Notes under the pieces: generated by a model
What the model saw: only the letters and a program-made list of their open reading frames with translations
Told to the model about the DNA's origin: nothing
The model's database searches: none
Assembly (NCBI RefSeq): GCF_014349155.1
Contig: NZ_JACSIT010000118.1
Location: forward strand, 62,001 to 126,000
Length of the DNA: 64,000 nt
Reading direction: 5' to 3'
Origin: Neolewinella lacunae
GTDB lineage: Bacteria; Bacteroidota; Bacteroidia; Chitinophagales; Saprospiraceae
Shown: positions 168-62,850 of the stretch, in pieces
How positions within the stretch are numbered: position 1 is the stretch's first letter
Layout: each line of letters starts with the position of its first letter
Program-made: the position numbers and the translations under genes

Positions 168-183
168 GCACCTGCGACCGCGC
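168..183 (+). repeat. Dispersed motif copy 1 (GCACCTGCG-ACC-GCGC)
   Basis: Exact match to GCACCTGCG-NNN-GCGC. It lies in the 57-bp gap between two convergent gene ends, followed directly by an A-run. Confidence 0.85.
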
Positions 184-191
184 AAAAAAAA

Positions 192-1472
192 TTACGCCAA
201 AGACGTCCGGTAAGCATCCCCCAGCAACCGGTTCGCCGCCGGGTCGTCCAGGAGGCGTTCCGTCGCGGGGTCCCAGTGCAGCGGCCGTTGCAGGCGATAG
301 GCGATGTTGGCCAGCGTACAAATGCTCGCCGTGCGGTGGCCGGTTTCGGCCGGACAAATCACCGCGCTGCCCTCCTGGATGCCCCGGAAAAAATCGGCCA
401 AATGGGCGATGTTGGGGTGTATCACATCCTTGTCCTTCCAATCGGCCCGGCGGATGAGGCCCTTGACGGTGCTGTCCACGAAGCCGCGGCTGACGTCCAA
501 AGAACCCTCCGTGCCGATGAAGCGCACGGCGTTGCCCCGCCCGAAAGTGCGGTGTTCCACGCGGGTGCCGTCTTCGTAAAAGAAGGTGAGTCCCTGCTGG
601 GGATTTATTCCGCTGGGCGGGAAAAAACGGGCGGGTCCGGTGCGGTCTTTATCGAGCGCCCACTGCACGATGTCGAACATGTGCGCGCCCCAGTCGGTGA
701 CCATTCCGCCGCCGAATTCCGCAAAATCCCGCCATTTCGGCCAGATGTTTTGTTCCAGCGTAGGCGCGAGCAGGCCATTGAAGGGCCGCTGCACGGAACT
801 GCCTATCCACTGTGGCCAGTCCAGTCCGGCGGGCAATGGCTCGGCGGGCAGGTCGAACGATCGCGGCGGCGGGCCTACGCTGACGAGCACCTCTTTGACT
901 TGCCCGATTTTGCCGGCGCGGATGAGCGCCACGGCGTGCTGAAAGGTGAACTGCGAGCGTTGCATGCTCCCCGTTTGCAGGACCTTGCCGCTGCGGCGCA
1001 CGGCCTCGGCCACCGCCCTGCCCTCCTCGATGGTGTGGGCCAGGGGCTTTTCGCAGTACACGTGCAGGCCCCTGGCCAGGGCCGCCAGGCAGATGCTGGC
1101 GTGCTGGTGATCGGGCGTGGCGACGATGACCGCGTCCAGGCCGGGGTGCTCCAGCAGTTCCTGGTAGTTGCGGTAGCGTTTGATGTCGGCGGCCCCACCG
1201 GTGTCACTGCTGGCTTGCAATTTGTTTTGTTCGGCCACAAAATGCTCCAGCTTGGCGGCGTAGACGTCGCAGCCCGCCACCACCACGGCCGTATCCATTT
1301 GCGCAATCCGGCTGGCCAGTCCATTGGCCTGTTTGCCGGTGCCGATCACCCCGATCTGCAATTGCGCATTCGGGCTGTAGCCCCTAATGCCCGCCCGCGA
1401 CCACGAAGGCACCAGGGTGAGGCCCAGACTGGTCAGGGCGGCGTTTTTCAGGAATGTTCTGCGCTTGGTCAT
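192..1472 (-). CDS. Gfo/Idh/MocA-family oxidoreductase with Tat-type signal
   Basis: Predicted NAD(P)-dependent sugar or polyol oxidoreductase of 426 residues. The N-terminus MTKRRTFLKNAALTSLGLTL has the arginine pair of a Tat signal, as is common for secreted members in Bacteroidota. The Rossmann nucleotide loop is IGVIGTGKQANG (about residues 41-52), and the family EKP motif is at HVYCEKPLAH (about 137). It lies on the strand opposite the SusC/SusD operon, next to the AraC regulator, and probably belongs to the same carbohydrate locus. The substrate cannot be read from sequence. ATG start at 1472. Confidence 0.88.
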   Translation of the reverse strand: MTKRRTFLKNAALTSLGLTLVPSWSRAGIRGYSPNAQLQIGVIGTGKQANGLASRIAQMDTAVVVAGCDVYAAKLEHFVAEQNKLQASSDTGGAADIKRYRNYQELLEHPGLDAVIVATPDHQHASICLAALARGLHVYCEKPLAHTIEEGRAVAEAVRRSGKVLQTGSMQRSQFTFQHAVALIRAGKIGQVKEVLVSVGPPPRSFDLPAEPLPAGLDWPQWIGSSVQRPFNGLLAPTLEQNIWPKWRDFAEFGGGMVTDWGAHMFDIVQWALDKDRTGPARFFPPSGINPQQGLTFFYEDGTRVEHRTFGRGNAVRFIGTEGSLDVSRGFVDSTVKGLIRRADWKDKDVIHPNIAHLADFFRGIQEGSAVICPAETGHRTASICTLANIAYRLQRPLHWDPATERLLDDPAANRLLGDAYRTSLA

Positions 1473-1559
1473 TTCCGCTCGGTTTTGCTTGGGGGCTTAA
1501 GGTAGGCATTTGGGTCCATTACTGGCGGAATTTGCTTGCGGAGGGTTTGGGGACAGCGG

Positions 1560-1607
1560 GCGCGGCCGCAGGTGCTCCCCCCCGACCCCCCGAAGGGGGG
1601 AGTAGGT
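1560..1607 (-). repeat. Dispersed motif copy 2 fused to a G/C hairpin
   Basis: Bases 1560-1575 are the motif in reverse orientation with GCC in the variable triplet. They run directly into a C-tract and a perfect hairpin at 1586-1600 (CCCCCC-GAA-GGGGGG). The same composite recurs at 59380-59427. It lies downstream of the AraC gene and could act as its terminator, although no clear T-run follows. Confidence 0.75.
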
Positions 1608-1622
1608 TGGAGGAGCAATGCA

Positions 1623-2525: not shown

Positions 2526-2567
2526 TTTCAGCTAAAATAGTACCAACAATAGAGAAGAAACGCAAGA

Positions 2568-2595
2568 TTGAGGCTGCTACCACGCCATAATTTTG
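2568..2595 (+). promoter_or_regulatory. Candidate Bacteroidota promoter for the SusC operon
   Basis: TTG at 2568-2570 and TAATTTTG at 2588-2595, separated by 17 bp, fit the Bacteroidota -33 TTG and -7 TAnnTTTG pattern. They point towards the SusC gene and would leave a 5' leader of about 165 nt. The region between the divergent AraC and SusC genes is AT-richer than its surroundings. Confidence 0.5.
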
Positions 2596-2768
2596 TGCAT
2601 CGATCAAATGTTTTGAAATCCTCATCGCTTATAAAATAAAATTCCGAAAGGAGGAGGATAACTGCGGAAGCATTTGCTATTCGAAAGTACGGTACAATTT
2701 TCATGCAAAAGAGTCGCCAATATTGCTGAATGTCTTGGGAGCAATGAAGGTGGCATAAAAAGACAACT

Positions 2769-7774: not shown

Positions 7775-9223
7775 ATGTCGAATCGCCATCCATACTGGTA
7801 TCCCCTGCTCATCCTGACTTTACTTTGCACCTGCGTCAGCGCCCAACATAACGTAACTCCCTGGACGGAAGTGGCCATCGGGCTGCCCGTCGCCGGTAAA
7901 CTAAAAACGCTGACGACCCACGAAGTCAAAGGCTACCCCTGGAGCGTTGGCGGCGAGACGATGGACCGCGACTATACGATTTACGACAACTGGAAAGCCT
8001 ACGTCGAACCCCTGGGAATTACGCAGGTCCGATTGCAAAGTGGCTGGGCTAAAACCGAAAAAAAGCAAGGCCAATACGATTTTGCCTGGCTGGACCACCA
8101 CGTGCGCGACCTCGTAAAAAAAGGCGTTAAGCCCTGGATCAGCCTTTCATACGGCAACGAAATATACTCGGGTGGCGGCGGCATCCGGCTCGGGGCAGGC
8201 CTACCCAACAGTGGTACGGCCAAAGAGGGATGGAAGCGTTACGTGCGGGCCACGGTGGCGCGTTATTCCGACGTAGTGGACGTCTGGGAGGTTTGGAACG
8301 AGCCCAATAACAACTGGCGGCCCGATAATCCTGGCCACGGCAATCCACCGGAAGATTACGCTGCCTTTCTGATGATGACCAGCAAGATCATCCGCGAACT
8401 GCAACCCAAGGCCACCATCATCGGAATGGCCTCCGCCGGAATCGCCACGCAGTGGAATGCCCGGGTGCTGCGCTACCTCAAGGCCAACGACGGCCTCGAA
8501 TCCCTGGACCTCCTCTGCTATCACCCCTACAGCCTCAACCCCGATGCGGTAGACCGTGGCGTGGCCGAACTCCGCGACACCCTGCGCAAGTACAGCGACC
8601 GCATCGAGCTCTACCAGGGGGAAAACGGCGCGCCCAGCGAGTTCCGCAACACCAAAGCCCTGAGCAAGTACAACTGGACCGAACTGAGCCAGGCCAAATG
8701 GTTTTTGCGCCGCGCCATTAACGACCGCGGACAGGGCATTGGCACCAGCATTTTTTCCATCGTGGATTTGCAATACCCCGACGAAATAAACCGCAAAGGC
8801 CTGTTGCTGACCAACGACAATAAAGAAGTCGTCCGGCCAAAACATGCCTATTCCGCAGTACAAAACCTCGTCTCGCTCTTCGGGGCGGATGTGGTCCGCC
8901 GGCCCGACTTCGACTACAAGGCGGCCACTTACCACGGCGTAAAGGCTTACGCTTTTGACCGGTCCAACGCGGCGCTGGTGGCTTTTTGGTTCGGCGACAA
9001 CATTCCGTCGGACTACAACACGACGACGGCGGTGGATCTGACTTTCCGGAAAACGACCTTTAAAGATCCGGTTTGCGTTGACCTCCGCACGGGGCAGGTA
9101 TATGAAATCCCCGCCAGCCGGCACCGCGTGGAAAATCAGGATCACGTATTTTTCGGCATTCCGGTGTACGACAGTCCTACCGTGATTGCCGAACGTTCGG
9201 CTTTGCCTGGCATCCTTAAATAA
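7775..9223 (+). CDS. Secreted clan-A glycoside hydrolase (GH39-like)
   Basis: A 482-residue secreted TIM-barrel hydrolase. The signal peptide ends LCTCVSAQ (17-24). The acid/base glutamate is in WEVWNEPN (Glu176) and the probable nucleophile is in YQGENGAP (Glu283), the spacing expected of clan GH-A. After about residue 360 there is a small beta-rich tail. The closest recollected family is GH39 (beta-xylosidase and related), but GH5-like alternatives cannot be excluded. It follows SusC/SusD and precedes uxaC, so xylan side-chain or backbone processing is a reasonable inference. The signal peptide codons contain a copy of the dispersed 16-bp motif. Confidence 0.82.
   Translation: MSNRHPYWYPLLILTLLCTCVSAQHNVTPWTEVAIGLPVAGKLKTLTTHEVKGYPWSVGGETMDRDYTIYDNWKAYVEPLGITQVRLQSGWAKTEKKQGQYDFAWLDHHVRDLVKKGVKPWISLSYGNEIYSGGGGIRLGAGLPNSGTAKEGWKRYVRATVARYSDVVDVWEVWNEPNNNWRPDNPGHGNPPEDYAAFLMMTSKIIRELQPKATIIGMASAGIATQWNARVLRYLKANDGLESLDLLCYHPYSLNPDAVDRGVAELRDTLRKYSDRIELYQGENGAPSEFRNTKALSKYNWTELSQAKWFLRRAINDRGQGIGTSIFSIVDLQYPDEINRKGLLLTNDNKEVVRPKHAYSAVQNLVSLFGADVVRRPDFDYKAATYHGVKAYAFDRSNAALVAFWFGDNIPSDYNTTTAVDLTFRKTTFKDPVCVDLRTGQVYEIPASRHRVENQDHVFFGIPVYDSPTVIAERSALPGILK
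7827..7842 (+). repeat. Dispersed motif copy 3 (variable triplet TCA), in coding sequence
   Basis: GCACCTGCG-TCA-GCGC lies in the signal peptide of the glycoside hydrolase, where the overlapping codons read Cys-Thr-Cys-Val-Ser-Ala up to the predicted signal peptidase site. Confidence 0.85.
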
Positions 9224-9230: not shown

Positions 9231-10667
9231 TTGCTCTCTTTCATCAACGACAATTTCCTGTTGCGGGGTGCGGTGGCCGAACGCTTGTTTCACGCCACGG
9301 CCCGGCACCTGCCCGTAGTGGATTACCACAACCACCTCGATCCGGCGGCCCTGGCGGGTGACCGTACTTTCGAGGACCTTACTGCGCTGTGGATTGCGGG
9401 GGACCCCTACAAGCACCGGGCGATGCGCATCAATGGCATCACCGAAGAACGCATTACGGGGCAGGCCAGTGCCTACGATAAGTTCCTGGCCTGGGCCGAG
9501 ACTTTTCCGCGTACCTGGGGCAACCCGCTTTACCACTGGAACTGCCTGGAACTCCAACGCGTGTTTGGGGAGGAGGAACTTCTTTCGCCCGCGACGGCGG
9601 AGGACATCTGGCGGCGGGCCAACGCGCAGCTTGGGGAACCACGGCTCTCGGCGCAGGGCATTCTCCGGGGTTTTGGGGTGGAGACGCTCTGTACTTCCGA
9701 TGACCTCTTGCAGGACCTGGGCTTTCACGGCCGGGCCACGGCGCGGGGCACCTTGACGGTGCTGCCCTCGCTGCGGGGCGACAGCATTACGGACGTGACG
9801 CGGAGTGGCTTTCCGGCCTGGCTGGCGCAGCTGGCGGCGCTCACCGGGCGGGAGATCCGTACTTTGGAGGATTACCTCGTGGCGGTTGACCTGCGCTTGG
9901 AAGAATTCGCCAGGGCGGGCGGGGTGTTGGCCGACCACGCCCTCAACTCCGGCTACCGTTTTCTGCCCTGTACCCACGAGCGGGCGGCGGAGCTTTTTGC
10001 GGGCGCGGCCGCAGGTGCAAAGCTGGGGGAAGAAGCGGGGTTAGCGATCAAGAACTACCTCATCCTGGAGCTCGCCAGCCGCTACGCCAGCCGCGACTGG
10101 GGCCTGCAACTGCACGTCGGAGCACAGCGCAAAACCAGTGCCCGCCTGCGGAGTCTGGCCGGTGACGCCGGGGGCTACGCCAGCATTGGCAGCGCCGCCG
10201 ACGTGGCCAGCATCGCTACCCTGCTCGACACCATCGAACGCGGCCAGCACGGTTTGCCAGACATCATCCTCTACACCCTCAACCCTTCCGACAATGCCGG
10301 TTTTGCCAGCCTGACCGGCTCCTTTGCGGAATCGGGGCGGCCGGGGAAAATCCAGTTTGGCCCTTCGTGGTGGTACAACGACCACCTGGACGGCATCCGG
10401 GACCAACTGCAGGCCGTGGCGGCGCACGGCCTGCTGCACCACTTCATCGGCATGACGACAGATTCGCGCAGCTTGCTGTCCTTTTCCCGCCACGAATACT
10501 TCCGCCGCATCCTCTGTAACCTCCTGGGCGAATGGGTGGACGCAGGGCGAATCCCCAACGACGAAGCCCTGCTCACCGAGGCAGTCACCAACATCGGCTA
10601 CCGCAACGCCGCCGACTGGCTCGGGCGGAAAGTTGCGGCGGCCTCCCCCACCCTCTCGTCCAACTAA
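9231..10667 (+). CDS. uxaC: Glucuronate isomerase (uronate isomerase)
   Basis: Converts D-glucuronate to D-fructuronate, the first step of uronate catabolism. The metal-dependent amidohydrolase-type barrel is recognised from VVDYHNHLDPAAL near the N-terminus, LYHWNCLELQRVFG, SGYRFLPCTHERA, KNYLILELASRYASRDWGLQLHVGAQR and the C-terminal FIGMTTDSRSLLSFSRHEYFRR. Length of about 480 is normal. No ATG fits the start. TTG at 9231, eight bases after the preceding stop, gives LLSFINDNFLL, the usual UxaC N-terminus. An earlier in-frame TTG at 9186 would overlap the hydrolase gene. A copy of the 16-bp motif lies within the gene (10003-10018) and encodes a Gly-Ala-Ala-Ala-Gly-Ala stretch. Confidence 0.93.
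   Translation: MLSFINDNFLLRGAVAERLFHATARHLPVVDYHNHLDPAALAGDRTFEDLTALWIAGDPYKHRAMRINGITEERITGQASAYDKFLAWAETFPRTWGNPLYHWNCLELQRVFGEEELLSPATAEDIWRRANAQLGEPRLSAQGILRGFGVETLCTSDDLLQDLGFHGRATARGTLTVLPSLRGDSITDVTRSGFPAWLAQLAALTGREIRTLEDYLVAVDLRLEEFARAGGVLADHALNSGYRFLPCTHERAAELFAGAAAGAKLGEEAGLAIKNYLILELASRYASRDWGLQLHVGAQRKTSARLRSLAGDAGGYASIGSAADVASIATLLDTIERGQHGLPDIILYTLNPSDNAGFASLTGSFAESGRPGKIQFGPSWWYNDHLDGIRDQLQAVAAHGLLHHFIGMTTDSRSLLSFSRHEYFRRILCNLLGEWVDAGRIPNDEALLTEAVTNIGYRNAADWLGRKVAAASPTLSSN
10003..10018 (-). repeat. Dispersed motif copy 4 (GCC), inside uxaC
   Basis: Exact reverse-orientation copy within the uxaC reading frame. The frame is kept and gains an alanine/glycine-rich loop, FAGAAAGAK. 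Confidence 0.85.
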
Positions 10668-14950: not shown

Positions 14951-14966
14951 GCACCTGCGGCCGCGC
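14951..14966 (+). repeat. Dispersed motif copy 5 (GCC), left arm of an inverted pair
   Basis: Exact copy 8 bp after the uxuA stop codon and 13 bp before the GH115 start codon. It is paired in inverted orientation with the copy at 15058. Confidence 0.88.
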
Positions 14967-14978: not shown

Positions 14979-17033
14979 ATGGACTTATTAAAATTGTTGC
15001 CGCTTTTATTATTTTTCTTTACGGCCTGTACGACCAATAAAGCAGATATCGATTGGGGCGCGGACGCAGGTGCAGAAATTGTCCTGGGAGCAGGGTTGAC
15101 GGCCCCGACGCTCCTGGCGGTGGAAGACTTGCGCAGTGACCTGGAAAAAATCACGGGCGTGCGTCCGGCCCTGGCGGCCGACCCCAAAAACTGCCAGCCC
15201 TGCATCGTCATTGAGCGCGATTCCGCCCTGGCTTCCGGCTGGGAACGCTACCGCATTGAAATCGGGGCCGACCGCATTCGCATCAGCGGTGGCGACGAGC
15301 GGGGGCTGATGTTTGGCATTTATCATTTTCTCGAGCATCAATTAGAAGTGGATCCCCTCTATTTTTGGTCGGGCCGCGAACCACAACGCCGGGAACAGTT
15401 AACATTGGCGGCCATGGACTATACCAGCGAGTCGCCCGATTTTAAATACCGCGGTTGGTTCATCAACGACGAAGACCTGCTTACGGAATGGATGGACAGC
15501 GGCGGAAAACGCAATATCCGCTACCCGTTTTACGGCGACGTAGTCAACGAAAAAGCGATGGACCACGTGGTCGAAGCCGCCGTGCGCCTGCGCTTCAACC
15601 TCATCATTCCCGCCAGTTTTCTGGATATTAAAAATCCGCCGGAACGCGCCCTGCTCGACGCCGCCGCCCGCCGCGGATTATTCCTTTCCATGCACCACAT
15701 CGAGCCGCTGGGCGTCAGTGCTTTTACCTACCAAAATTACTGGAAAGCGCGCGGCGAAGAGCCCCTGTTCAGCTTCTACAGCGCCCGCGAAAAAGTGGAA
15801 ACCACCTGGCGGGAATACGCCCGGGAATGGGCGCAGTACGACAACGTCATCTGGCAGGTGGGCCTGCGGGGCATCGGCGACCGCCCCATGTGGATGGCCG
15901 ACCCCGGCACGCCACAATCGGACGCCGAGCGCGCCAGCCTCATTTCCGAGGCCATGGCCCTGCAAAAGAAAATCATCACCGAAACGACGGGCGACGAAAA
16001 TCCAATAATGACCACCACGCTCTGGGCCGAAGGCGCTTATTTTAACCAACACGGCCTGCTGCGCATCCCCCGGGGCGTCATCACGGTCTTTGCCGACAAC
16101 AACCCCGGCTGGCACTGGCAACCCGATTTTTACGCAACGGAGCGGGAACCCGGGCGGCAATACGGCGTCTACTACCACCACCAGGTATGGGGCTGGGGTC
16201 CGCACCTCGCGCAGGCCATTCCTCCCCGGCAAACGGCGCAGGTGCTGGGCGAAGCCTACACGAGTGGCGCGCACGAGTACGCCATTCTCAACGTCAGTAA
16301 CGTCCGGGAATTCCTGCCGGGCCTGGCCGCCTCATCCGATATGCTCTGGAAAATGCGCGGCTTCGACGGCGACGTTTTCCTCCGCAACTGGGCGGCGGAA
16401 AATTTCCCCTCCGCCCCCGACGCCGTGCACCGGGCATACCTGGCTTACTTCGATGGCTACGCCGGCTTCGGAGACCGCAACATGCCCGGGTTTCTGGACG
16501 GACAGACCAAACACGAAGGACAAGCGGCGCTGAAACGCATCCGCGAGATCCTCGCCAACGGCTACACCCCACCGCAAGAAAGTCCGCAGACGAACAAAAA
16601 GGCCGACCCTTTCCACGCCGCCCTGGCGGGTGCCGACCCCAAAAAAGGCCTTCCCCTGGCGGAAAAGACCGCGCGCCTGGCCACCCAGATTGCTCATTTT
16701 CAATCGGCCGATAGCCTCAGCTCCGTTATCCTCACCCAACTCGCTACCGATCAGGAACGGCAGCTGCTGAGCGACAACCTCCGGACCCACATCCAACTCC
16801 AGCTCGCGCTGGGCCACTGGCTGCACGCCCTGCTGCGCGCTGAGTTGGCCCTGCAACATGCGGACGAAAACAGCGGCAAAACCCTGCTGGCCGATGCCGT
16901 CGAAGCACTCCTGGCCGTGGAAAACATCAAAGCCGGAGCCAGCCACGGAAAGTGGCAGCACTGGTACCGGGGCGATAAGAAAATGAACCTGCCGGGCTTA
17001 CTGGAGGAGACACAGAAGCTTGTGGGGGAATGA
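14979..17033 (+). CDS. GH115-family alpha-glucuronidase (lipoprotein)
   Basis: Predicted to release (4-O-methyl-)glucuronic acid from xylan. A 684-residue lipoprotein (FFFTACTT, lipid cysteine 17). The N-terminal domain (about 30-145) has the IRISGGDERGLMFGIYHFLE block, followed by the family signature YRGWFINDEDLLTEW (about 158-172) and the barrel with MHHIEPLGVSAFTYQNYW, WQVGLRGIGDRPMWM and WGWGPHLAQ. It appears to lack the long C-terminal beta-sandwich of larger GH115 enzymes. It provides free glucuronate for uxaC and uxuA of the same operon. The ATG at 14979 has an AAGGA site a few bases upstream. Confidence 0.9.
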   Translation: MDLLKLLPLLLFFFTACTTNKADIDWGADAGAEIVLGAGLTAPTLLAVEDLRSDLEKITGVRPALAADPKNCQPCIVIERDSALASGWERYRIEIGADRIRISGGDERGLMFGIYHFLEHQLEVDPLYFWSGREPQRREQLTLAAMDYTSESPDFKYRGWFINDEDLLTEWMDSGGKRNIRYPFYGDVVNEKAMDHVVEAAVRLRFNLIIPASFLDIKNPPERALLDAAARRGLFLSMHHIEPLGVSAFTYQNYWKARGEEPLFSFYSAREKVETTWREYAREWAQYDNVIWQVGLRGIGDRPMWMADPGTPQSDAERASLISEAMALQKKIITETTGDENPIMTTTLWAEGAYFNQHGLLRIPRGVITVFADNNPGWHWQPDFYATEREPGRQYGVYYHHQVWGWGPHLAQAIPPRQTAQVLGEAYTSGAHEYAILNVSNVREFLPGLAASSDMLWKMRGFDGDVFLRNWAAENFPSAPDAVHRAYLAYFDGYAGFGDRNMPGFLDGQTKHEGQAALKRIREILANGYTPPQESPQTNKKADPFHAALAGADPKKGLPLAEKTARLATQIAHFQSADSLSSVILTQLATDQERQLLSDNLRTHIQLQLALGHWLHALLRAELALQHADENSGKTLLADAVEALLAVENIKAGASHGKWQHWYRGDKKMNLPGLLEETQKLVGE
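15058..15073 (-). repeat. Dispersed motif copy 6 (TCC), inside the GH115 N-terminus
   Basis: Reverse-orientation copy within codons for Gly-Ala-Asp-Ala-Gly-Ala, just after the lipoprotein signal. It forms an inverted pair with 14951-14966 around the start of the gene. Confidence 0.82.
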
Positions 17034-18339: not shown

Positions 18340-18526
18340 ATGTTTGGTGGGGAGGGGGGATTTGGGGGGATTGGGGCGCGGGCGCAGGTGCTGGGGAGGA
18401 CGGGAGAGCGATGTAGGGTGACTCGGCGGAGTTGACTCGTCCTGATATAGGTTGACAGTTTAAAATCCCTGACTTTTGAGGAGTTGACATAGGTTGGTTC
18501 GACCTGGTGAGCGTACCGCACTCTTA
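18340..18526. other. Intergenic trailer of the CRISPR array with short direct repeats
   Basis: No gene seen. GGAGTTGAC occurs at 18428-18436 and 18480-18488, and ATAGGTTG at 18447-18454 and 18489-18496, so two different short words are each repeated once. This resembles multiple protein-binding sites at the end of an insertion sequence, but no transposase or terminal inverted repeat is present. Confidence 0.45.
18376..18391 (-). repeat. Dispersed motif copy 7 (CCC)
   Basis: Reverse-orientation copy 64 bp upstream of the PQQ dehydrogenase start codon, within a G-rich stretch. Confidence 0.82.
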
Positions 18527-18555: not shown

Positions 18556-21500
18556 AATCGAAAAAGTGAAGTGGGCGCTGCATGGCCTATCGTTTCAATT
18601 CCCGAAGGATCAATTCAAAGCTCCATGAACCAACGCATCCAGCTGGTGCAGATCACGTTTCAATTCCCGAAAGATCAATTCAAAGCACAGCAAAGATTTG
18701 CGGAGCGATAACGGGAACAGAGTTTCAATTCCCGAAGGATCAATTCAAAGCAAAAAATACGCTAAGGGGCGAAACAAGTACCCTCGTTTCAATTCCCGAA
18801 GGATCAATTCAACGGGCTTTCGCCCGGTTATGCCGAAAGGAATTTTCCGGGTTTCAATTCCCGAAGGATCAATTCAAAGATCCTGCTGCATAAGGACATG
18901 ACGTGTTTTGGGTTCGTTTCAATTCCCGAAGGATCAATTCAAAGAGTGCGGACGCATGGTTTTTGAGCCATATTCGCCAAGTTTCAATTCCCGAAGGATC
19001 AATTCAAAGCCTTGGCGGGGCCCTGGCGACTTCCGCGCAGTTCAGTTTCAATTCCCGAAGGATCAATTCAAAGCCCCAAGCAGATCATTGAAGCCACTTG
19101 GGATTTCGGGTTTCAATTCCCGAAGGATCAATTCAAAATGTAGGGATAGATGGCGCTTTTGGTGCTTTGCTGGTTTCAATTCCCGAAGGATCAATTCAAA
19201 GCAGGTGCGCCACACTGATCGATACCGCCCGAAACATGTTTCAATTCCCGAAGGATCAATTCAAAGTTTGTCCTTTTTCCGCTCCTCGCTCAACCCAGAG
19301 TTTCAATTCCCGAAGGATCAATTCAAAGCGTTATTGTCGCCGGGGTTGAGAGGTTGGAAAACCTGTTTCAATTCCCGAAGGATCAATTCAAAGTATCACC
19401 CCCAACACTCCATGGTGGGGGCAAATCATGTTTCAATTCCCGAAGGATCAATTCAAAGCTCTGTTTCTGCTGACTCTGCGCGTGAAAATCTCGTTTCAAT
19501 TCCCGAAGGATCAATTCAAAGCGAGCCACCGTACACCAAATTTGGATTTAGACCTGGTTTCAATTCCCGAAGGATCAATTCAAAGGCGTTAACGACTTCA
19601 TTGCCAACCTGTCCAAAATCCGTTTCAATTCCCGAAGGATCAATTCAAAGCCAGGCGGGCCGGGTTTGGTACAACACGCCTCCGGAGTTTCAATTCCCGA
19701 AGGATCAATTCAAAGGACCCAAATAGTACTGGATTCAATACAGTCTATTTTGTTTCAATTCCCGAAGGATCAATTCAAAGCGAAGGTGTAGGCGATATTC
19801 CGCAGGGAAACATGGCGTTTCAATTCCCGAAGGATCAATTCAAAGTTTGTCGGTAATAGCGAGGCATTGCTATTTTAAATTGTTTCAATTCCCGAAGGAT
19901 CAATTCAAAGCCTGATCGAGCGCCTGATCGAGATGTATACTAACCCGTTTCAATTCCCGAAGGATCAATTCAAAGTCCGCCGGGTTGGTACGAGCCAGTT
20001 CTCTGCCGCCAGTTTCAATTCCCGAAGGATCAATTCAAAGCCTTTGCGCTGAGAAAAAGGGTAGTGGTTCGCTTAGTTTCAATTCCCGAAGGATCAATTC
20101 AAAGGCGACTTTATTTCAGGCGTGAAGGCTGCCGTTCACGTTTCAATTCCCGAAGGATCAATTCAAAGACACCACCTACGCCCCGGTCTTTTCCACCTAC
20201 CAGAGTTTCAATTCCCGAAGGATCAATTCAAAGCAAAGGCATTTGCCACGGTCAGGACGGTACTGGCTAGTTTCAATTCCCGAAGGATCAATTCAAAGGA
20301 TGGGGCCGGCGGGGCCTTGCGGTCCGGTTGCTCCGTTTCAATTCCCGAAGGATCAATTCAAAGATTGTTGGGCCATTTGCCAACATTCACCCCCCACTTG
20401 GTTTCAATTCCCGAAGGATCAATTCAAAGAAGAAAGGGGAGTTTACATCTTCTCCAGCTCACGCGTTTCAATTCCCGAAGGATCAATTCAAAGGAGCGCC
20501 TGGCCACTCAAAACACCATCAACAGCGTGTTTCAATTCCCGAAGGATCAATTCAAAGTAGAGCTTCAAAAAAGCGGCTAAATATCCCGTGGCGCAGTTTC
20601 AATTCCCGAAGGATCAATTCAAAGGCGTTTTTGCCTAGGTAGGCTCGGAGCTTGTCGCGTTGTTTCAATTCCCGAAGGATCAATTCAAAGAAACTCGGGG
20701 GTACCGGGTATAAGTCGGGATAAATAAGTTTCAATTCCCGAAGGATCAATTCAAAGCACTGGGTGGACTGGTTTTGCCACAAGTGACCTTAGTTTCAATT
20801 CCCGAAGGATCAATTCAAAGGGCGTTGCGGGGGTGGGGGTGGGGGTACCTTGGCCGTGTTTCAATTCCCGAAGGATCAATTCAAAGTACCAGCCGTTGCC
20901 CAGACGGGGTTCGACGATCAGGGTTTCAATTCCCGAAGGATCAATTCAAAGCGTCTACTTCGTCTGGCTCGACCTGGACCAAGACGCGTTTCAATTCCCG
21001 AAGGATCAATTCAAAGTCTCCGCCTTGCGCTCCTTTGCGGTCTGCTCCCGGAGTTTCAATTCCCGAAGGATCAATTCAAAGCCCGAGGGTAGCCCGATCA
21101 GCAGGCACCCGTTCGGTTTCAATTCCCGAAGGATCAATTCAAAGAAAGGCGCAGCGGCGGTATTCTCGCAAACCTTCGCGTTTCAATTCCCGAAGGATCA
21201 ATTCAAAGCCCGAGGGTAGCCCGATCAGCAGGCACCCGTTCGGTTTCAATTCCCGAAGGATCAATTCAAAGTTGTTGGATCCATTGATGACGGACATCAT
21301 CACGCGCGTTTCAATTCCCGAAGGATCAATTCAAAGAGCCAAAACCTCCCGCACTTACCAAATTTCACGTGGGTTTCAATTCCCGAAGGATCAATTCAAA
21401 GAGGGAGTTCCAGCTGACGGAAGCAGAGGTAAGGTTCGTTTCAATTCCCGAAGGATCAATTCAAAGCCCAACGTTTCGGACATTATCTTCCAGATGGACA

Positions 21501-24500
21501 GGTTTCAATTCCCGAAGGATCAATTCAAAGGCCTTCGAGGAGACGGACGCGAAGGCGCGTTTCTTGTTTCAATTCCCGAAGGATCAATTCAAAGACAGCG
21601 CAGGCGACTTGACTATGATCCCCACACGAAGTTTCAATTCCCGAAGGATCAATTCAAAGTCTGCCTGACTACATACCCCGCCGAAGCGATCATCAGTTTC
21701 AATTCCCGAAGGATCAATTCAAAGACCGCTTGGGCCGCATTATGAACACGCACCTGACCAGTTTCAATTCCCGAAGGATCAATTCAAAGGAGGGGTATTA
21801 CCGCGTGGAGGTCGAAACGATCACGTTTCAATTCCCGAAGGATCAATTCAAAGTCGTAAGTTTTCTGAGCGAGGCAGAAAGGACCTTAGTTTCAATTCCC
21901 GAAGGATCAATTCAAAGGCGCGACGTCGGGCGGCTTGTTCCGGCGTTTCCGGGTTTCAATTCCCGAAGGATCAATTCAAAGCTAGATTGTATTTATGGCC
22001 TCCGTAGATATTCCCTAGTTTCAATTCCCGAAGGATCAATTCAAAGAAGATTGCACGCTATTATATTTGCGGCGTACTTAAGTTTCAATTCCCGAAGGAT
22101 CAATTCAAAGTGGAAGAGTCGAGTTCCTCCGCTACTTTAACGAGGGTTTCAATTCCCGAAGGATCAATTCAAAGCCCTAACCAGTGTACGTACAAGGATG
22201 GGGACACCATGTTTCAATTCCCGAAGGATCAATTCAAAGCCTGAAGTTTCGCAACATGACCATCAACCACGAAAGTTTCAATTCCCGAAGGATCAATTCA
22301 AAGCGTAAACGGCTCCTCATTCTCAACGCACAACTCCAGGTTTCAATTCCCGAAGGATCAATTCAAAGACTAATTTACCGCTTGGGTGCAACAGGCAGCA
22401 TTTCGTTTCAATTCCCGAAGGATCAATTCAAAGTATCACCCCCAACACTCCATGGTGGGGGCAAATCATGTTTCAATTCCCGAAGGATCAATTCAAAGGC
22501 CCGGAGGCCGGACTTAATGACAGCGCGAATGAAGTTTCAATTCCCGAAGGATCAATTCAAAGCGTAGAGGCGGAAGTTTGTACCGTTAATTACTCCAGGT
22601 TTCAATTCCCGAAGGATCAATTCAAAGTCACGCTACATCCTTATCAATCTTACCCGCACCGCGTTTCAATTCCCGAAGGATCAATTCAAAGTTTGGCTTT
22701 ACTGATGAGAATGAACTACAGATGCATGTTTCAATTCCCGAAGGATCAATTCAAAGCTGCTGGCTGAAAAGGACTGGTCCGGACGAAAAAAGGTTTCAAT
22801 TCCCGAAGGATCAATTCAAAGAAAAAATCCACCAAGAAAACCACCACGAAGAAAGCGTTTCAATTCCCGAAGGATCAATTCAAAGCTCCCGGCGAATGGA
22901 ACATGTTGGGGCAGCCCGCATGTTTCAATTCCCGAAGGATCAATTCAAAGCAGAAAGGAGACGAAGTACTCATTCCTCTTGGCGAGTTTCAATTCCCGAA
23001 GGATCAATTCAAAGATACCCGCTTTTGGCTGGAAGAATTGGCCGACACCAGTTTCAATTCCCGAAGGATCAATTCAAAGCCGCACCCGCCGGCCAGTCGC
23101 GCCGCGCAAATCCCGTTTCAATTCCCGAAGGATCAATTCAAAGACGAAGCGCTGGCCAGCCCTTATCCCAACCCCGTGAGTTTCAATTCCCGAAGGATCA
23201 ATTCAAAGATGCTTAAACATCACCGTGCGAACCCCAACGACTTGGTTTCAATTCCCGAAGGATCAATTCAAAGCAGCCATGTTACCTTAGGGAATATCTC
23301 CCACGCCTTGTTTCAATTCCCGAAGGATCAATTCAAAGAGCGAAGGCGAAGACGGGGGTCGACCCAGCGCCGAGTTTCAATTCCCGAAGGATCAATTCAA
23401 AGTTCCTCGATGAGTACTCCAACCAGATCAGCTTCAAGGTTTCAATTCCCGAAGGATCAATTCAAAGGGCAAGGCCTTTTCCCTGACCTGCATTTCCTAC
23501 GACGTTTCAATTCCCGAAGGATCAATTCAAAGCACAGATCAATTTTGCGGGGCAGGTGGCACCACCACGTTTCAATTCCCGAAGGATCAATTCAAAGTGC
23601 GGCTCCTCGGCCAGCTCCCCGAAGACGAAACCCGTTTCAATTCCCGAAGGATCAATTCAAAGCAGTGATTAAATATGATCAACAAAATCACCCTCATGTT
23701 TCAATTCCCGAAGGATCAATTCAAAGGACCACAACGTACCCTGTCGTAGTGCTGGTCAATACGTTTCAATTCCCGAAGGATCAATTCAAAGCCTGTGCAG
23801 AGCTTCGATGGGGGCTTCCTGATTGCGGTTTCAATTCCCGAAGGATCAATTCAAAGGCGGGTCGCAATCTGAAACGGTGGTGCAGTATTCTTGTTTCAAT
23901 TCCCGAAGGATCAATTCAAAGGGGAAAGCGGTGAGGTCCATGCTGCGGACGGTGTGTTTCAATTCCCGAAGGATCAATTCAAAGTTGCGCATCCCAAAAG
24001 AGAACGTGCAGCACTACCGTTTCAATTCCCGAAGGATCAATTCAAAGCTGGGATATTTACGTAATCAGTCACGAGATCGCCCAGTTTCAATTCCCGAAGG
24101 ATCAATTCAAAGCAATATCCCTGCCCTTGCCAAGGGTGGTATCACGAGTTTCAATTCCCGAAGGATCAATTCAAAGCGCCGGGCAGCAGGCAAAGCCGGT
24201 CGGGAAACCCGAGTTTCAATTCCCGAAGGATCAATTCAAAGGGGCCTCTACCACCCCAGCCCCGCACCGTTTTTAGGGTTTCAATTCCCGAAGGATCAAT
24301 TCAAAGGCGCCGCGCAAATCCCCGGTGTTAAACGTGCTGGCATGTTTCAATTCCCGAAGGATCAATTCAAAGGCCGCCCCTTGGCAGTTAAATCAATATC
24401 AATGTTAAGTTTCAATTCCCGAAGGATCAATTCAAAGAACCCTCCGCACGATGTACTCCGGTACGATCGTGAAGTTTCAATTCCCGAAGGATCAATTCAA

Positions 24501-27644: not shown

Positions 27645-27660
27645 GCACCTGCGGTCGCGC
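27645..27660 (+). repeat. Dispersed motif copy 8 (GTC), between cas2 and cas1
   Basis: GCACCTGCG-GTC-GCGC in the 80-bp cas1-cas2 gap, followed by A/T runs. Confidence 0.85.
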
Positions 27661-28769: not shown

Positions 28770-28785
28770 GCGCTTTCGCAGGTGC
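28770..28785 (-). repeat. Dispersed motif copy 9 (AAA), between cas1 and cas4
   Basis: Reverse-orientation copy with AAA as the variable triplet, in the 126-bp cas1-cas4 gap. Confidence 0.75.
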
Positions 28786-32693: not shown

Positions 32694-32789
32694 ATAGTTA
32701 TTAAGTTATTGCACACCGGCCGCCGTTTCCAGTAGATATTTAGGCGCGTACGCAGGTGCAAGGGTTAAGTTAAAGCAGTGAAGGGAATT
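32694..32789 (-). repeat. cas8-cas7 gap with an imperfect inverted pair of the dispersed motif
   Basis: Bases 32744-32759 are a motif copy (triplet TAC, reverse orientation), with TTGCAC/GTGCAA-type ends. A decayed opposite copy begins TTGCACACCGGCCGCCG at about 32708. Together they can form a hairpin with a loop of about 20 nt in the middle of the Cascade operon. Confidence 0.75.
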
Positions 32790-37815: not shown

Positions 37816-37831
37816 GCACCTGCGGCCGCGC
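37816..37831 (+). repeat. Dispersed motif copy 11 (GCC), left arm
   Basis: Exact copy. With 37887-37902 it forms an 18-bp perfect inverted repeat. Confidence 0.92.
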
Positions 37832-37886: not shown

Positions 37887-37902
37887 GCGCGGCCGCAGGT
37901 GC
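37887..37902 (-). repeat. Dispersed motif copy 12 (GCC), right arm
   Basis: Exact reverse-complement partner of 37816-37831. Confidence 0.92.
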
Positions 37903-41222: not shown

Positions 41223-43220
41223 ATGACCCCAACACCTTACCTTCACGGAAAAGAAACTACTGGCACCGTGCAGCACGCCTCCGTCCCCACTCTGCTCCTC
41301 ATCCTCTTCCTTTGCACCTGCGGCCGCGCCCAGGAAAGCCTGACCAATGATTTCAGCTATTTTCCCGCCATGGCGGCTTCGGCGGCCAACCTGGATTACC
41401 TGACCAGCAATGGCAAAATCGGGCCAGTGGACGCGCTGGTCGCCAGCCTGACCAGCACGGAGGACCTCCGCCCTACCCCACCCGATTACCTGCGCATTGG
41501 CGATACCCTGCTGCCCCTGGCGGGTGGCACCACGGCCGTTCACCTGACCGGCAACGACGGCCGCGACTGGGTCACGATCCACACGCTGAGCCCCGACGAC
41601 GCTAAGCCCCGGCGGACAATGTGGAACGCCATCGGCACCTACACGGGCACCCAGTACGATCATGCCTGTTTTTACCTGAAGCTGGAAAAAGGGCAGCCGC
41701 ACAGCCTGCAAGCCACGGCCCTGTTTGGGTCGACCGTTCTTTCCCTGGGCCGCACTTTCCCCATTTCGCTGGCCCAGTACAACGAGTTGCCCAACGCAGC
41801 GCAACGGGCCGTGTACCAGGAGGCGGTGACGACCCTGGAGCGCCGCATTTTGGCCCTCGCCGAGCACCTCCTGCCAGCGGAGCAACTGCTCTACCTGGCA
41901 CGGCCATCCAGCCCAATGACCGCCGCGGAACGCACCTTCGGGCTGGTGCAGTTCTGGACAGAAGTAAAGTACAACTTCGCCTATTTCGATCAGGTTCCTG
42001 CGCTGAACTGGGACGCCGCCCTGCTGGAATACCTGCCTCTGGCGGCAGCGGAGCAGACTAATGCTGCCTATTTCCGCCTGCTGGAACGCTTCTGCGCCCT
42101 GCTGCAAGATGGCCACACCAACGTCTATCCGCCGCCCTACCTGCGCAGCTACTACGACCGTCCGCAGCTGAAAATCGAGCTCGTGGAAGGGCAGCCCGTG
42201 GTGGTCAATCACGCCGTCGGGTTGGGCCAGACCGTTCCCCTCGGTGCCCGCATTACCGCCGTGGAGGGCCGCAGCGTGGAAGCGCACCTGGAGGAAAACA
42301 TCTATCCTTATATATCCATCGGCAGCCCGGAAATCCGCCGGCGCTGGGGTGCCCACGACGTGTTGAAGGGGCCATCCGGCACCAATGTCACCTTCACTTT
42401 TCAAACCGTGGAGGGCGGGGAAAAGACCGTCACCCTACCCCGCAACCGCGACAAAAACTGGATTACCTGGGCCGTTGACGAACCGCAGCGCCCCCTGACG
42501 GCCTTCACCGTACTGGAGGGCGGCATTGGCCACCTGACCCTGAATTCCTTTGGCGACGAAAATGCGGCGACGGAGTTTCTGACCTATTGGCCCGAGATTC
42601 GAAAGTGCCGCGGACTGGTCATTGATTTGCGCTACAACGGGGGTGGCAACTCCGATGTCGGCTACGCGGTGCTCAAGCATTTCACCGGCCAGCCGGTCTT
42701 AACGTCTGCCTGGCGGACGCGGGAAATGCGGTCGGCCAACCGCGCCTGGGGGCAGTTTATGGCCGGCGAAGACCCCGCCAACCTGAGCGAAGACGACGCG
42801 CGCAACGTGGCGATGTACCGGGGCGATTACTGGTTTTTGGGCGCTCCCGATACGATCTGGCCGGCGGCGGATGCCCTGGCCTCCCTGCCCGTGGCCGTGC
42901 TCGTGAGCAATTACACGGCCTCCGCAGCGGAAGATTTTTTGGTCGCCGCCGATGCCCTGCCGAATTTTACTTTCGTGGGCGAGGCGAGCTTTGGCAGCAC
43001 GGGGCAGCCCATCCAGCTCCGCCTGCCGGGCGGCGGCAGCGCCCGCGTGTGCACTAAGCGCGACACCTACCCCGACGGCCGCGTTTTCGTCGGCCCCGGC
43101 GTGCAGGTGGACGTTCCCGTCCGCCCCACCATCGCGGAGTATCTGGCGAAAAAAGATGTGGTTTTGGAGCGGGCCTTACAGGGAATAAAGGGGGAAAGGA
43201 ATAAAGGGGGAAGGGAGTAA
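41223..43220 (+). CDS. S41-family (C-terminal processing-like) serine peptidase, secreted
   Basis: 665 residues from ATG 41223; a GTG at 41268 would place the signal peptide PTLLLILFLCTCGRAQ nearer the start. An N-terminal helical/beta region precedes a PDZ-like segment (about 320-390, GLGQTVPLGARITAVEGRSVEAHLEENIYPY). The S41 catalytic domain has GLVIDLRYNGGGNSDVGY, VLVSNYTASAAEDFLVAAD (catalytic serine in the SAAEDF turn) and VGEASFGSTGQPI. It probably trims periplasmic or surface proteins. The signal peptide codons contain the 16-bp motif, and another copy in opposite orientation follows the stop codon. Confidence 0.9.
   Translation: MTPTPYLHGKETTGTVQHASVPTLLLILFLCTCGRAQESLTNDFSYFPAMAASAANLDYLTSNGKIGPVDALVASLTSTEDLRPTPPDYLRIGDTLLPLAGGTTAVHLTGNDGRDWVTIHTLSPDDAKPRRTMWNAIGTYTGTQYDHACFYLKLEKGQPHSLQATALFGSTVLSLGRTFPISLAQYNELPNAAQRAVYQEAVTTLERRILALAEHLLPAEQLLYLARPSSPMTAAERTFGLVQFWTEVKYNFAYFDQVPALNWDAALLEYLPLAAAEQTNAAYFRLLERFCALLQDGHTNVYPPPYLRSYYDRPQLKIELVEGQPVVVNHAVGLGQTVPLGARITAVEGRSVEAHLEENIYPYISIGSPEIRRRWGAHDVLKGPSGTNVTFTFQTVEGGEKTVTLPRNRDKNWITWAVDEPQRPLTAFTVLEGGIGHLTLNSFGDENAATEFLTYWPEIRKCRGLVIDLRYNGGGNSDVGYAVLKHFTGQPVLTSAWRTREMRSANRAWGQFMAGEDPANLSEDDARNVAMYRGDYWFLGAPDTIWPAADALASLPVAVLVSNYTASAAEDFLVAADALPNFTFVGEASFGSTGQPIQLRLPGGGSARVCTKRDTYPDGRVFVGPGVQVDVPVRPTIAEYLAKKDVVLERALQGIKGERNKGGRE
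41314..41329 (+). repeat. Dispersed motif copy 13 (GCC), in signal peptide codons
   Basis: Exact copy encoding Cys-Thr-Cys-Gly-Arg-Ala ahead of the signal peptidase site of the S41 peptidase. Confidence 0.9.
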
Positions 43221-43229: not shown

Positions 43230-43245
43230 GCGCGGCCGCAGGTGC
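43230..43245 (-). repeat. Dispersed motif copy 14 (GCC)
   Basis: Exact reverse-orientation copy 10 bp after the S41 peptidase stop codon. With 41314-41329 it brackets the gene in inverted orientation. Confidence 0.9.
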
Positions 43246-46528: not shown

Positions 46529-46544
46529 GCACCTGCGGCCGCGC
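46529..46544 (+). repeat. Dispersed motif copy 15 (GCC)
   Basis: Exact copy in the 225-bp divergent gap, 61 bp before the pirin start codon. Confidence 0.9.
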
Positions 46545-54039: not shown

Positions 54040-54055
54040 GCGCGGCCGCAGGTGC
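54040..54055 (-). repeat. Dispersed motif copy 16 (GCC)
   Basis: Exact reverse-orientation copy, left member of an inverted pair. Confidence 0.9.
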
Positions 54056-54148: not shown

Positions 54149-54164
54149 GCACCTGCGACCGCGC
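54149..54164 (+). repeat. Dispersed motif copy 17 (ACC)
   Basis: GCACCTGCG-ACC-GCGC, right member of the pair, 79 bp before the GTPase start codon. Confidence 0.88.
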
Positions 54165-59365: not shown

Positions 59366-59379
59366 TAATAATACTTTGG

Positions 59380-59427
59380 GCGCGGCCGCAGGTGCTCCCC
59401 CCCGCCCCCCCGAAGGGGGGAGAAGGG
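59380..59427 (-). repeat. Dispersed motif copy 18 (GCC) fused to a G/C hairpin
   Basis: Motif at 59380-59395, then a C-tract and a hairpin CCCCCC-GAA-GGGGGG at 59406-59420. It is nearly identical to the composite at 1560-1607 and lies 14 bp after the isomerase-like gene, so a terminator role is possible. Confidence 0.8.
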
Positions 59428-59448
59428 ACAAGGAGCAAGGCCCAGACC

Positions 59449-59907: not shown

Positions 59908-59963
59908 GCCCAGACCCGGAGGGTCGCCCAGTATAGCGAGGGGATTCTATGCCCTCGTTTTCA

Positions 59964-62850
59964 TCAGCGGTTGTCAAACAACTGCCCTCCGTCGTAGCGG
60001 TTTTGGTTGACGGGCAGGTTGATGAAGTCGAGGGTGCCGGGTTTGACGGCGATGGAAAAGGAGTAAAAATTCCGCTGCGGCGCCCAGCTGAAGCGCATCT
60101 CCCAGCAGTGGAGATCACGCACGAAACTGAGGAAGGGATAGGTGATGCGCCTGCTGGTAAAGTCGTAGCCAATCTGCCCGATGTTCACGCTCCAGTTGTT
60201 GGTCAGCTGCAAGGCCCCGCGCAGTTCGATGGAGTTGGCCAGCTGGGAAAAGCGGGGCCGGCCGCGGTCGTCGACGTCGGGGGCTTCGGTATCGAACTCC
60301 CGCTGAAAGCGAAAGCGGAAGGTGTGCTGGATGCTGAATCGCTCGAAGAGGCTCAGCAGGTCGGTTTCTTCAAAAAGGGTGGTTTCTTCCTCGCGGCGTT
60401 TGCGGCGTTCTTCCTCGATGTCGGTCACTACTTCCTCTTCCGCGCCCTGGAATAGCTGGCGGATTTTGCTGACGGTGAGGTTGGTCGTGATGCTGCTCTC
60501 AAAGCGGGTCAGGGAAAGCGGAAAGCGGCCTTCGGAGAGGTTGGAAATTTCTACCCGGCGGAACTGGTTGCGAACGGGATCGTACTGCGTAGCGTAGGGA
60601 TCAAAGGTGGCTCCGATATTGACCCGGGTCAGTCCCTTGAAAAACTGGGTGCCGCCGGTAAGGTTTACGGGACTCCATTTTAAGCTATCGAGGGTAAAGT
60701 CGTAGCTGCCCGAAATGCCGATGTTTTCGAAGAGCTTGATGTTTTGGCTCGTGCTGTCTTTGGCGTTCCAGATCTTCGCTTCGAAGAGGTTGGTGATGCT
60801 GTAGCTCAGTCCAAGGTTGCGTTTGCCGGGGGAAGGAGCACCGAAGATCTGGTTGGCGAAGGGCGAAAGCAGGCGGGTGGGGTCACCGTTGAGGGGATCG
60901 ATTTCGTCTTCGCGGAGAAAATAGGGCTCACCGCTGATGTAGTCCTCGGCGTCGATGTAATTGGGGTTATAGCCGATGCTGACGTTGGGCTTCATTACGT
61001 GGCGGAGGCCCTGGAGGCCGAGGAGGCCTTTCTTGCGGAAGCGCACCTTGCCGAAGAGTTGGGTACTGACGTTGACCGCAGCGCTGAAAGTCCGGAAACT
61101 TGCCACCCCGGGATTGAGGCTGCTGATGATTTCGCCGAGGCTGGTGATGGTGATGACTTCCTCGCCGGTGATGGGGTCGATGAGGGTATCGCGCTGCACG
61201 TTGCCATCGAGGTTGTAGGCCCGGGTTTTGCCGTAGTAAACTTCGCCGTAGTTGATGCTGGGGCTGACGTTGAAGTACTTCAGCACGTTGAGGCTGAGGG
61301 CGGAGTTGATGTCGTGGCGGAAGCCGTACTCTCCGGCGTCCAGCGTCGCCTGGGTGAAAAAGGTGGAGTCGGGCGCCTCAAACTCCGTCCGCAGGGCATT
61401 TTTGTAGCGGAAGGAGAGTTTCTTCCACCAGGCGGACTGCTTACCGGGCAGTTCGCGCAGGGGGTAGATCGTTTGGGTCTGGAAGGTGGCGTCGGGAAAA
61501 TTGACGGTGATGATCCGCGACTGGTTATTCTGGCTGTGGTTGAGGCCGGCGGTGAGGGTACTCTTGAGCTTGGGGAAGTTCTTGGTCAGGTTCATGCTCG
61601 ACCGGATGGTATTCTGGCTGGCGACCTCGAAAGAGTTGATGAAGCGCTGGTCGACGATATTGGTCTGGAAGTTGAGCGAGCCGCCGAAGTTGAAGGTGGG
61701 GTGCGCGGCGCGGTCCTGGCGGTGGCTCCACTGGATGGAGATGCCCTTGTCAAAGAACTCGTTGAGTTCGCGGTCTTCGCGGCGCAGGTTTTTGAAGCTG
61801 GCGTTGAAGCTGCCCGTGTACTTGTAGCGCCGGACGTAGCGGAGATTGGTATTCAGGGAGTAGGTGCCGCGCAGGAAGTAGTCGGCCGTCGCTTGCAGGT
61901 TGACGTGCTCACCGATGGGGAAAAACCAGCCGACGCCCTGGAGGCCGTAGCCCCACTGGGGACTGTACTGGTAGTCGGAAGGAAAGAGCAAACCGGTGCT
62001 CCGACCGCTTTTGAGGGGGAAGAAGCCGAAGGGCAGCCAGAGAGGCGTCGGTACGCCCATGATTTCGAGGTTGCTGGGGCCAATGACGGCCAGGCGGTTG
62101 GGGATGACCTTGGCCCGTTGGGTGCGGATGCCGAAGTGGGGGTGCTCCGCCGAGCAGGTGGTGAAGATGGCTCCCTGGGTGTAGATGACGTCGGCGCGGA
62201 CCGTGTCGTTCACCTGCACGGCGCCGCTGACGAACTTTGACTTGCCGCCACGCACGAAAATATCGTCCTGGGTCGTGGTGGTGCCGTAGACGATGCCCTT
62301 GCGGGTTTTGAAGTTGTAGCGCATCTCCCTGGCGGTAAAACTCTGGCCGCCGTCGCTGAACTCCGGCGCACCGGCGGGCCGGCCCAGGCTATCGGGCAGG
62401 GGTTCAGCGTAGACTAAGTTCGTGCCGTAGTTGAGGATGATGTGGTTGGCCTTGAGGTTGATGGTCTGGTAGGTCACCTCGGCGGCTCCGTAGAGGTGGA
62501 TTTCCTGGAGAACGAAGTCGACCGTCATACTGTCTTCAGCGGCGTAGGTGACTGGGGCGGTCAGGGAGTCTGCCGACATCACGAAATCGGCCGTGCTGCC
62601 CGCGAAGGCCTTGGTGGGGACGATGGTATCGATCCGGGCGCTGTCCAGCAATTGCAACGGCGGGAGGGTATCCTGGAAGGGCGCGTGATGGCTGGTGTGG
62701 ACGTTCCCTGCTCCCCATACCTGCCCTGGCACCTGCGCCAGCGCCCAAAAAAGGAGGGCGCGCAGTAAAAAAAGTCGCTTAAAATGGCAAAAAGGAGCAG
62801 CGGCAGGCGAAAAGAGCCGCCTAAACCGTTGAAAAATGCTATATATTTGC
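59964..62850 (-). CDS. lptD: LPS-assembly protein LptD-like outer-membrane protein
   Basis: About 960 residues. A signal-like stretch (RLFLLRALLFWALAQVPGQ) precedes an OstA-like N-terminal domain (about residues 100-250: FVLQEIHLYGAAEVTYQTINLKANHIILNYGTNLVYA, and FTAREMRYNFKTRKGIVYGTTT). The long barrel has GVPTPLWLPFGFFPLKSGRSTGLLFPSDYQYSPQWGYGLQG, the LptD hallmark. It places lipopolysaccharide in the outer leaflet. The start is unclear: no ATG is in frame before the signal peptide, and the frame runs up to GTG 62921 inside the divergent amidase gene. I place it near 62850. A copy of the 16-bp motif is in the signal peptide codons. Confidence 0.88.
62729..62744 (+). repeat. Dispersed motif copy 19 (CCA), within lptD N-terminal codons
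   Basis: GCACCTGCG-CCA-GCGC on the plus strand. On the lptD (minus) strand the codons read Ala-Leu-Ala-Gln-Val-Pro at the predicted signal peptidase region. Confidence 0.82.
62842..62849 (+). promoter_or_regulatory. Candidate -7 box (TATATTTG) for the amidase gene
   Basis: TATATTTG matches TAnnTTTG and lies 47 bp before the amidase ATG. No good -33 TTG is seen 17-21 bp upstream, so this is weak. Confidence 0.4.

Follow-up and report, generated by a model that had tools for sequence, protein, structure and literature searches.

What selects a short two-part word that returns 19 times in 64,000 nucleotides of the Neolewinella lacunae genome? The word, here motif A, reads GCACCTGCG-NNN-GCGC, with 13 fixed bases and both strands read, and the stretch (hereafter the window) comes from contig C100, 142.5 kb long, in a 5.8-Mb draft genome. 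Our analysis suggests that motif A is probably an uptake-sequence-like tag of self DNA, read directionally and spelled in dialects that differ between species. In support of this reading, we observe a large excess of the word, balance between strands, sharp conservation in N. lacunae, a characteristic placement, a mostly insertion-free origin of copies, species dialects, inverted close pairs and avoidance of neighbours that face the same way. Taken together, the excess, the placement, the origin without indels, the dialects and the inverted pairs form the signature of uptake words, as these are described in the available parts of two studies (PMC2397512; PMC3630211). Among the options named in a preliminary description of the window, made from its letters alone, a signal resembling those of DNA uptake is the one best supported.

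An exact two-part word in excess across the genome

All 19 window sites listed in the preliminary description match the pattern exactly, spanning positions 168 to 62744, and 100 dinucleotide shuffles of the window gave no match. The middle triplet varies as described (GCC in 10 of the 19, with the same other triplets), and the statement that nearly every GCACCTGCG in the window belongs to the motif holds for 19 of 20 occurrences, the exception lying at 16237–16245 on the minus strand. The same description named a genome-wide count no higher than a Markov background, or confinement to this region, as grounds for giving up the idea of a selected word. The N. lacunae genome contains the exact word 1286 times (636 and 650 by strand), where 0.65–1.53 copies are expected per genome (order-3 and order-5 Markov models trained on 461 kb, sites masked or unmasked), and the reversed-pattern control gave 0 copies; with a count far above background and a genome-wide spread, neither ground applies. 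Spacing averages ~4.5 kb genome-wide, and within the stretches fetched from this genome its mean is 3.4 kb with a coefficient of variation of 0.79.

Near misses are few. A 461-kb sample of the genome (the window and further stretches) contains 119 exact copies and 6 that depart from the 13 fixed bases at a single position; the DUS/DUS-1 ratio of the DNA uptake sequence (DUS) is ~2.4 in aligned Neisseria regions (PMC2397512), a figure that is not like for like with 119:6. The true motif is also longer than first described, its core continuing on the 3′ side and favoured bases preceding it on the 5′ side. Across the 119 copies the core is followed by two bases, mostly CC, and then by A-rich sequence; the middle triplet is biased towards G-C-C, with T favoured at –1 and C at –4. 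The word TGCTCC lies within 60 nt upstream of 40 copies and downstream of 6 (~3 expected), which makes the element polar. A family of G/C hairpins, CTCCCCCCTTCGGGGGG..GGGGGGA, has 27 members in the 461 kb (in the window at 1560–1600 and 59380–59430), 20 of which directly abut the 5′ end of the motif; it looks like a second element fused to the motif.

At least one A copy is present in 20 of the 21 genus genomes compared (N. lacunae included; relatives are labelled G001 and so on), and outside the genus 3 of 19 genomes hold 1–4 copies each. A 19-base form, TGCACCTGCGNNNGCGCCC, occurred in at least 110 stretches in a scan of named genomes; among the 80 matches listed, 56 belong to Neolewinella, Lewinella or Saprospiraceae/Bacteroidia records without a genus name, and 24 are lone matches in unrelated, mostly GC-rich bacteria. 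From these counts we infer that abundance of motif A is confined to one genus, Neolewinella. A search of the open PubMed Central literature, with subscription papers and preprints outside its range, found no report of the motif among the papers listed.

Orientation of neighbours and species dialects

Close neighbours face opposite ways. All pairs at most 300 bp apart are inverted (14 of 14 in N. lacunae and 15 of 15 in G002), as in known uptake sequences, and same-way neighbours are also avoided over longer distances. In N. lacunae, neighbouring copies face the same way in 0 of 13 cases below 300 bp, 1 of 19 at 0.3–1.5 kb, 2 of 16 at 1.5–3 kb, 14 of 41 at 3–6 kb and 10 of 23 at 6–12 kb, which makes 3 of 48 below 3 kb. 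The same distance bins in G002, counted with a looser pattern (261 sites), give 0/29, 1/31, 6/34, 27/73 and 37/73, then 7/16 beyond; below 3 kb the looser pattern yields 7 of 94 same-way neighbours and the exact pattern (180 sites) 3 of 43. Contig C1 of G010, with 87 sites of another dialect (D, below), has 1 of 33 below 3 kb and 23 of 53 above. The avoidance fades to random beyond ~6 kb. In G017 a single pair lies below 3 kb, too sparse to test there, and 0 of 7 neighbours face the same way at 3–6 kb. Deletion between direct repeats is a possible but less likely cause of this rule: the rule is equally strong for D with its ~13 fixed bases, which suggests that homology-driven deletion would be a weak cause. 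To our knowledge, no such orientation rule has been described for DUS or for the uptake signal sequence (USS) of Pasteurellaceae.

Other species of the genus carry other versions of one two-part layout: dialect B, CACCTGCGNNCCCGCC (406 copies in G011, 381 in G005, 200 in G017), dialect C, ACCTGCGCNCCGCCGC (392 in G001, which holds 0 A), and dialect D, GCTACTTTGN1-2AGYC (1189 in G010, which holds 4 A), the last sharing few bases with A. Strands are balanced for B, C and D, and reversed controls gave 0 to 3 per genome. D tails of two lengths, GCTACTTTG-NN-AGYC and GCTACTTTG-N-AGYC, coexist in G010 (stretches L063–L066), which means that spacer length is variable by a single base. In a tree built from LptD and one further protein, with G010 chosen as the root, G009, G011 and G018 incomplete and a support of 0.07 at one sister-clade node, A leads in 11 of 11 genomes of the window's clade; in the sister clade the leading form is B or C in 7 of 9 genomes, and D marks G010. 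The dialects therefore largely follow phylogeny, as those of uptake sequences do, with G012 and G016 mixed. In 7 of 9 sister-clade species a B or C copy lies just beyond the aligned 5′ end of lptD, no more than ~100 bp away from it, the gene end at which the window copy starting at 62729 is found.

Three genomes from other genera of the family (G021–G023) showed no clear dialect in 7–20 kb each, too little DNA to judge, as is the 1.5 kb available from a fourth (G024). Repeats of GCGACCAAA in G006 were rejected as a dialect, 11 of 12 matches falling in one tandem array (L068, 15159–15464) with a 30–31 bp unit unrelated to the motif. Stretches L042–L056 of G002 and G005 are enriched in GCAACCTGCAACC and GCAACCCCTGCAAC, two words similar to the motif's left half.

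Placement, origin and competing explanations

Genes in the 461 kb were called with a simple home-made gene finder (345 genes, 84% coding). Although called genes cover 84% of the sample, 80 of the 119 A copies are intergenic. This agrees in part with the earlier statement that sites lie mainly near gene starts or ends; the rest of that statement falls, with 39 copies inside predicted genes and no preference for gene start, gene end or strand among the 119. The 39 coding copies encode 8 signal-peptide-like ends (e.g. LLCTCVSAQ), 9 Ala/Pro words (e.g. APAAAP), 4 peptides with LHLR or RHLR and 1 STCGRA, and 17 lie in opposite-strand genes (e.g. ARPQVQ, GAAAGA).

Alignment of N. lacunae stretches with relatives at the DNA level gave 64 matches, none with 250 or more columns across a motif site, and codon alignments were therefore used instead. 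Between N. lacunae and G002, 10 distinct in-gene positions were aligned (12 rows, two positions being seen from both sides; one further site lies outside the alignment). The motif is gap-free at 7 of them, and a gap abuts it in 2 of those 7. The peptide FAPAAAP was compared across 19 orthologues, after two further rows were dropped as distant paralogues. It is identical in 15 of the 19, with no indels among them; it is spelled as exact motif A in 6 (G002, G003, G005, G014, G015 and G018) and one mismatch off in three more (G007, G013 and G019), and N. lacunae and the sister clade use other codons. This indel-free synonymous spelling points to a DNA-level preference acting through synonymous sites, not to an inserted element. 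Both comparisons are consistent with the origin by substitution or homologous replacement seen in uptake sequences, and they fit the proposal of the preliminary description that a protein selects the word, rather than plain duplication.

The window itself shows the range of settings. Intergenic copies lie at 168–183 (plus strand, triplet ACC), 1560–1575 (minus, GCC), 14951–14966 (plus, GCC), 18376–18391 (minus, CCC; near the edge of a CRISPR array), 43230–43245 (minus, GCC; convergent genes on either side), 46529–46544 (plus, GCC; divergent genes on either side) and 59380–59395 (minus, GCC); a G/C hairpin and a TTGCTCC module precede those at 1560 and 59380. The copy at 14951 is convergent with one at 15058–15073 (minus, TCC), near the start of an opposite-strand GH115-like gene (GADAGA). 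Coding copies at 7827–7842 (plus, TCA) and 41314–41329 (plus, GCC; in an S41 peptidase gene) encode the signal-peptide-like ends CTCVSA-Q and CTCGRA-Q, and that at 10003–10018 (minus, GCC) lies in an opposite-strand gene (GAAAGA). A copy at 62729–62744 (plus, CCA) overlaps the 5′ end of the lptD gene call. The copies at 37816–37831 (plus, GCC) and 37887–37902 (minus, GCC) are convergent and fold together as a long stem (z –5.42); those at 54040–54055 (minus, GCC) and 54149–54164 (plus, ACC) form a divergent pair. Three more are found at 27645–27660 (plus, GTC) between the CRISPR array and cas1, 28770–28785 (minus, AAA) between the cas4 and cas1 gene calls, and 32744–32759 (minus, TAC) between the cas8-like and cas7 gene calls. 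The array (18603–27136, minus strand) has 133 repeat copies, mostly 64–65 bp apart, with no motif inside; the cas set beside it, at 27.7–36.8 kb, has cas1, cas4, cas3, cas7, cas8, cas5 and cas6 as best models (I-B or PGING type), together with a WYL regulator.

The preliminary description also allowed for a mobile unit. Repetitive extragenic palindromes (REPs) and bacterial interspersed mosaic elements (BIMEs) resemble motif A in being dispersed, mostly intergenic and arranged in inverted pairs, and our four tested A pairs fold strongly (stems of 17–19 bp or longer, z –5.4 to –9.8). The abutting hairpins, the presence of Y1 transposases in 20 of 21 genus genomes and gaps at 3 of the 10 aligned coding positions could likewise be expected of a REP or miniature inverted-repeat transposable element copied by a transposase. 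We nevertheless reject this origin, which is very improbable, on folding, alignment and transposase evidence. Each REP unit is an imperfect palindrome that folds by itself, whereas 8 of 8 single A copies tested fold no better than shuffles (z –0.93 to +0.65), so the motif is not a REP; most aligned coding copies did not arise by insertion, and FAPAAAP is respelled synonymously. REPs are also linked to a Y1 transposase of the RAYT (REP-associated tyrosine transposase) type flanked by units, but the Y1 transposases here are few and mostly not near copies: an exact A copy occurs at only 4 of the 20 loci fetched among those listed (1.8–3.3 kb, A form only counted), and of the two Y1 genes of N. 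lacunae the one fetched has none. A transcription terminator or other regulatory element, named earlier too, is scarcely credible. Inverted pairs can form stems, some of them between convergent genes, but most copies are single, many lie in genes, and with no association with gene ends or strand a promoter or terminator role is rejected.

Two further rivals were weighed. A mutational, repair or methylase-linked process could favour a word without any uptake, as with the cyanobacterial HIP1, another very abundant short word, which is tied to methyltransferases (PMC4390886) and has a debated role; motif A is GC-rich, in excess and kept nearly exact. HIP1 is the palindromic octamer GCGATCGC (PMC4390886), whereas motif A does not have that composition, being longer, non-palindromic and oriented, with a variable middle and a polar upstream module. 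A rule of orientation that spans kilobases, and a dialect as distant from A as D, also make a process of this kind improbable. The main surviving rival, likewise among the options of the preliminary description, is an oriented site for a chromosome-organising or segregation protein, whose two half-sites would recur every few kilobases with neighbours facing opposite ways, for example as anchors of loops or domains. The bipartite layout, the genome-wide spread and the spacing noted above, the alternating orientation and the sharp conservation within N. lacunae are all compatible with such a site. We consider it unlikely, however, since sets of hundreds to more than 1000 sites differ between species of one genus and some species, such as G004, have few copies of all four patterns; replacement of sites across a whole species is hard for an essential structural site and natural for a self-reinforcing tag.

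Several observations weigh against a directional uptake tag itself. In an 80-kb sample of G010 searched with the bare 9-mer, 9 of 20 neighbours beyond 300 bp face the same way, with no orientation rule. Among sister-clade genomes, G012 and G016 hold similar low counts of three forms, with a small lead for A, and G004 has few copies of any of the four (11 A, 46 B, 27 C, 0 D). Conservation is much less sharp in G002 (180 exact copies and 93 with one mismatch, mostly at two positions). At 3 of the 10 in-gene positions a gap interrupts the motif or the motif falls inside an insertion (Ala/Pro-rich linkers in two cases), and N. lacunae lacks the motif at FAPAAAP. A tag of self DNA should be depleted in foreign DNA, and this is not clearly seen: A density follows a weak GC trend (2.97 sites per 10 kb in GC-rich bins vs 1.76 in GC-poor bins), and copies are present among the cas genes. 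The search for machinery bears on both sides of the balance. In favour, ComEC is present in 21 of 21 genus genomes and the ComEA-type family HHH_3 in 20 of 21; both are widespread (10 and 11 of 14 control genomes, respectively), and their presence proves little. On the opposing side, a scan of the 21 genomes for T2SSE, the motor family of the type IV pilus machine (PilB/PilT) that would carry a receptor, found only partial matches, covering 24–84 of 370 positions with a best E of 1.3e-5. The curated cut-off was barely passed in 11 genomes (24.9–25.5 vs 24.9 bits) and N. lacunae fell below it; most of these stretches sit in open reading frames of ~890–1070 aa and probably belong to other P-loop proteins such as UvrA. 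Finally, the open PubMed Central literature yielded no report of transformation in Neolewinella.

Likeness to known uptake systems and significance

Motif A shares with the DUS of Neisseriaceae its high copy number, its intergenic and permissive coding placement and its strong conservation, as well as inverted pairs and phylogeny-congruent dialects (PMC3630211 for the pairs; PMC3630211 and PMC2397512 for the rest, in the parts available). The genome-wide, two-strand and clade-bound excess is likewise that of an uptake sequence. It differs from DUS in its unrelated sequence and phylum, its bipartite form with a variable middle and a polar upstream module, its orientation exclusion over kilobases, the want of a clear pilus motor, and an uptake function that is predicted from sequence. 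The USS, like motif A, consists of a core with flanking modules. It too is scattered in many copies, with close pairs in opposite orientation (PMC7811141), at a spacing of ~1 kb in H. influenzae (PMC7811141) vs ~4.5 kb on average here; a pilus machine of the USS type was not found in the scan above, and neither was a receptor. With only T2SSE fragments at hand, the machine would have to differ from that of Neisseria and Haemophilus, and we do not file the motif among the pilus-based families.

Competence exists in Bacteroidota, where Riemerella columbina prefers its own DNA (PMC7965970). Transformation in Riemerella involves ComEC, DprA, an HHH protein and envelope proteins that have no known relatives in competence (PMC7965970; PMC8459023), and the model proposed there has uptake proceed through other envelope proteins (PMC8459023); the available parts of these papers differ from our case in mentioning uptake words only as background. 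Weak homologues of pilus parts are listed for Flavobacterium johnsoniae (PMC7965970), which leaves room for a pilus in the phylum.

A model based on our data would have a natural-transformation receptor bind the bipartite word and start DNA import in one direction. Word-bearing DNA would be taken up and recombined more often and the word would accumulate, the drive of preferential uptake and selection together keeping it exact. A second same-way word within one imported stretch would add nothing, whereas an opposite-facing word would. The orientation rule agrees with such one-way initiation of import by a receptor, and the range of ~3–6 kb over which the rule fades may then correspond to the length of an imported stretch. 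Directional DNA transport is reportedly on record for H. influenzae, to judge by the title of one study cited in PMC7811141. The system would thus work like DUS and USS, yet it appears to lack their pilus motor. A bolder version of the model, which we find possible and advance only tentatively, is that sequence-specific DNA import arose separately in Bacteroidota and needs no type IV pilus, with a directional receptor for a bipartite word, dialects that isolate species genetically and an exclusion range of 3–6 kb that equals the DNA length per event.

An uptake-type self-recognition tag, if confirmed, would be without precedent in this bacterial branch. Uptake words are described, in the sources available to us, from Neisseriaceae and Pasteurellaceae, both of which use pilus-based uptake; a third separate lineage, if real, would show repeated evolution of sequence-tagged sex among bacteria. 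Genomes of Neisseria and Haemophilus offer an immediate check of the orientation rule, which is a measurable trait. If the uptake reading is true, the word would also serve as bait for the DNA receptor of Bacteroidota, and transformation of these bacteria could become easier.

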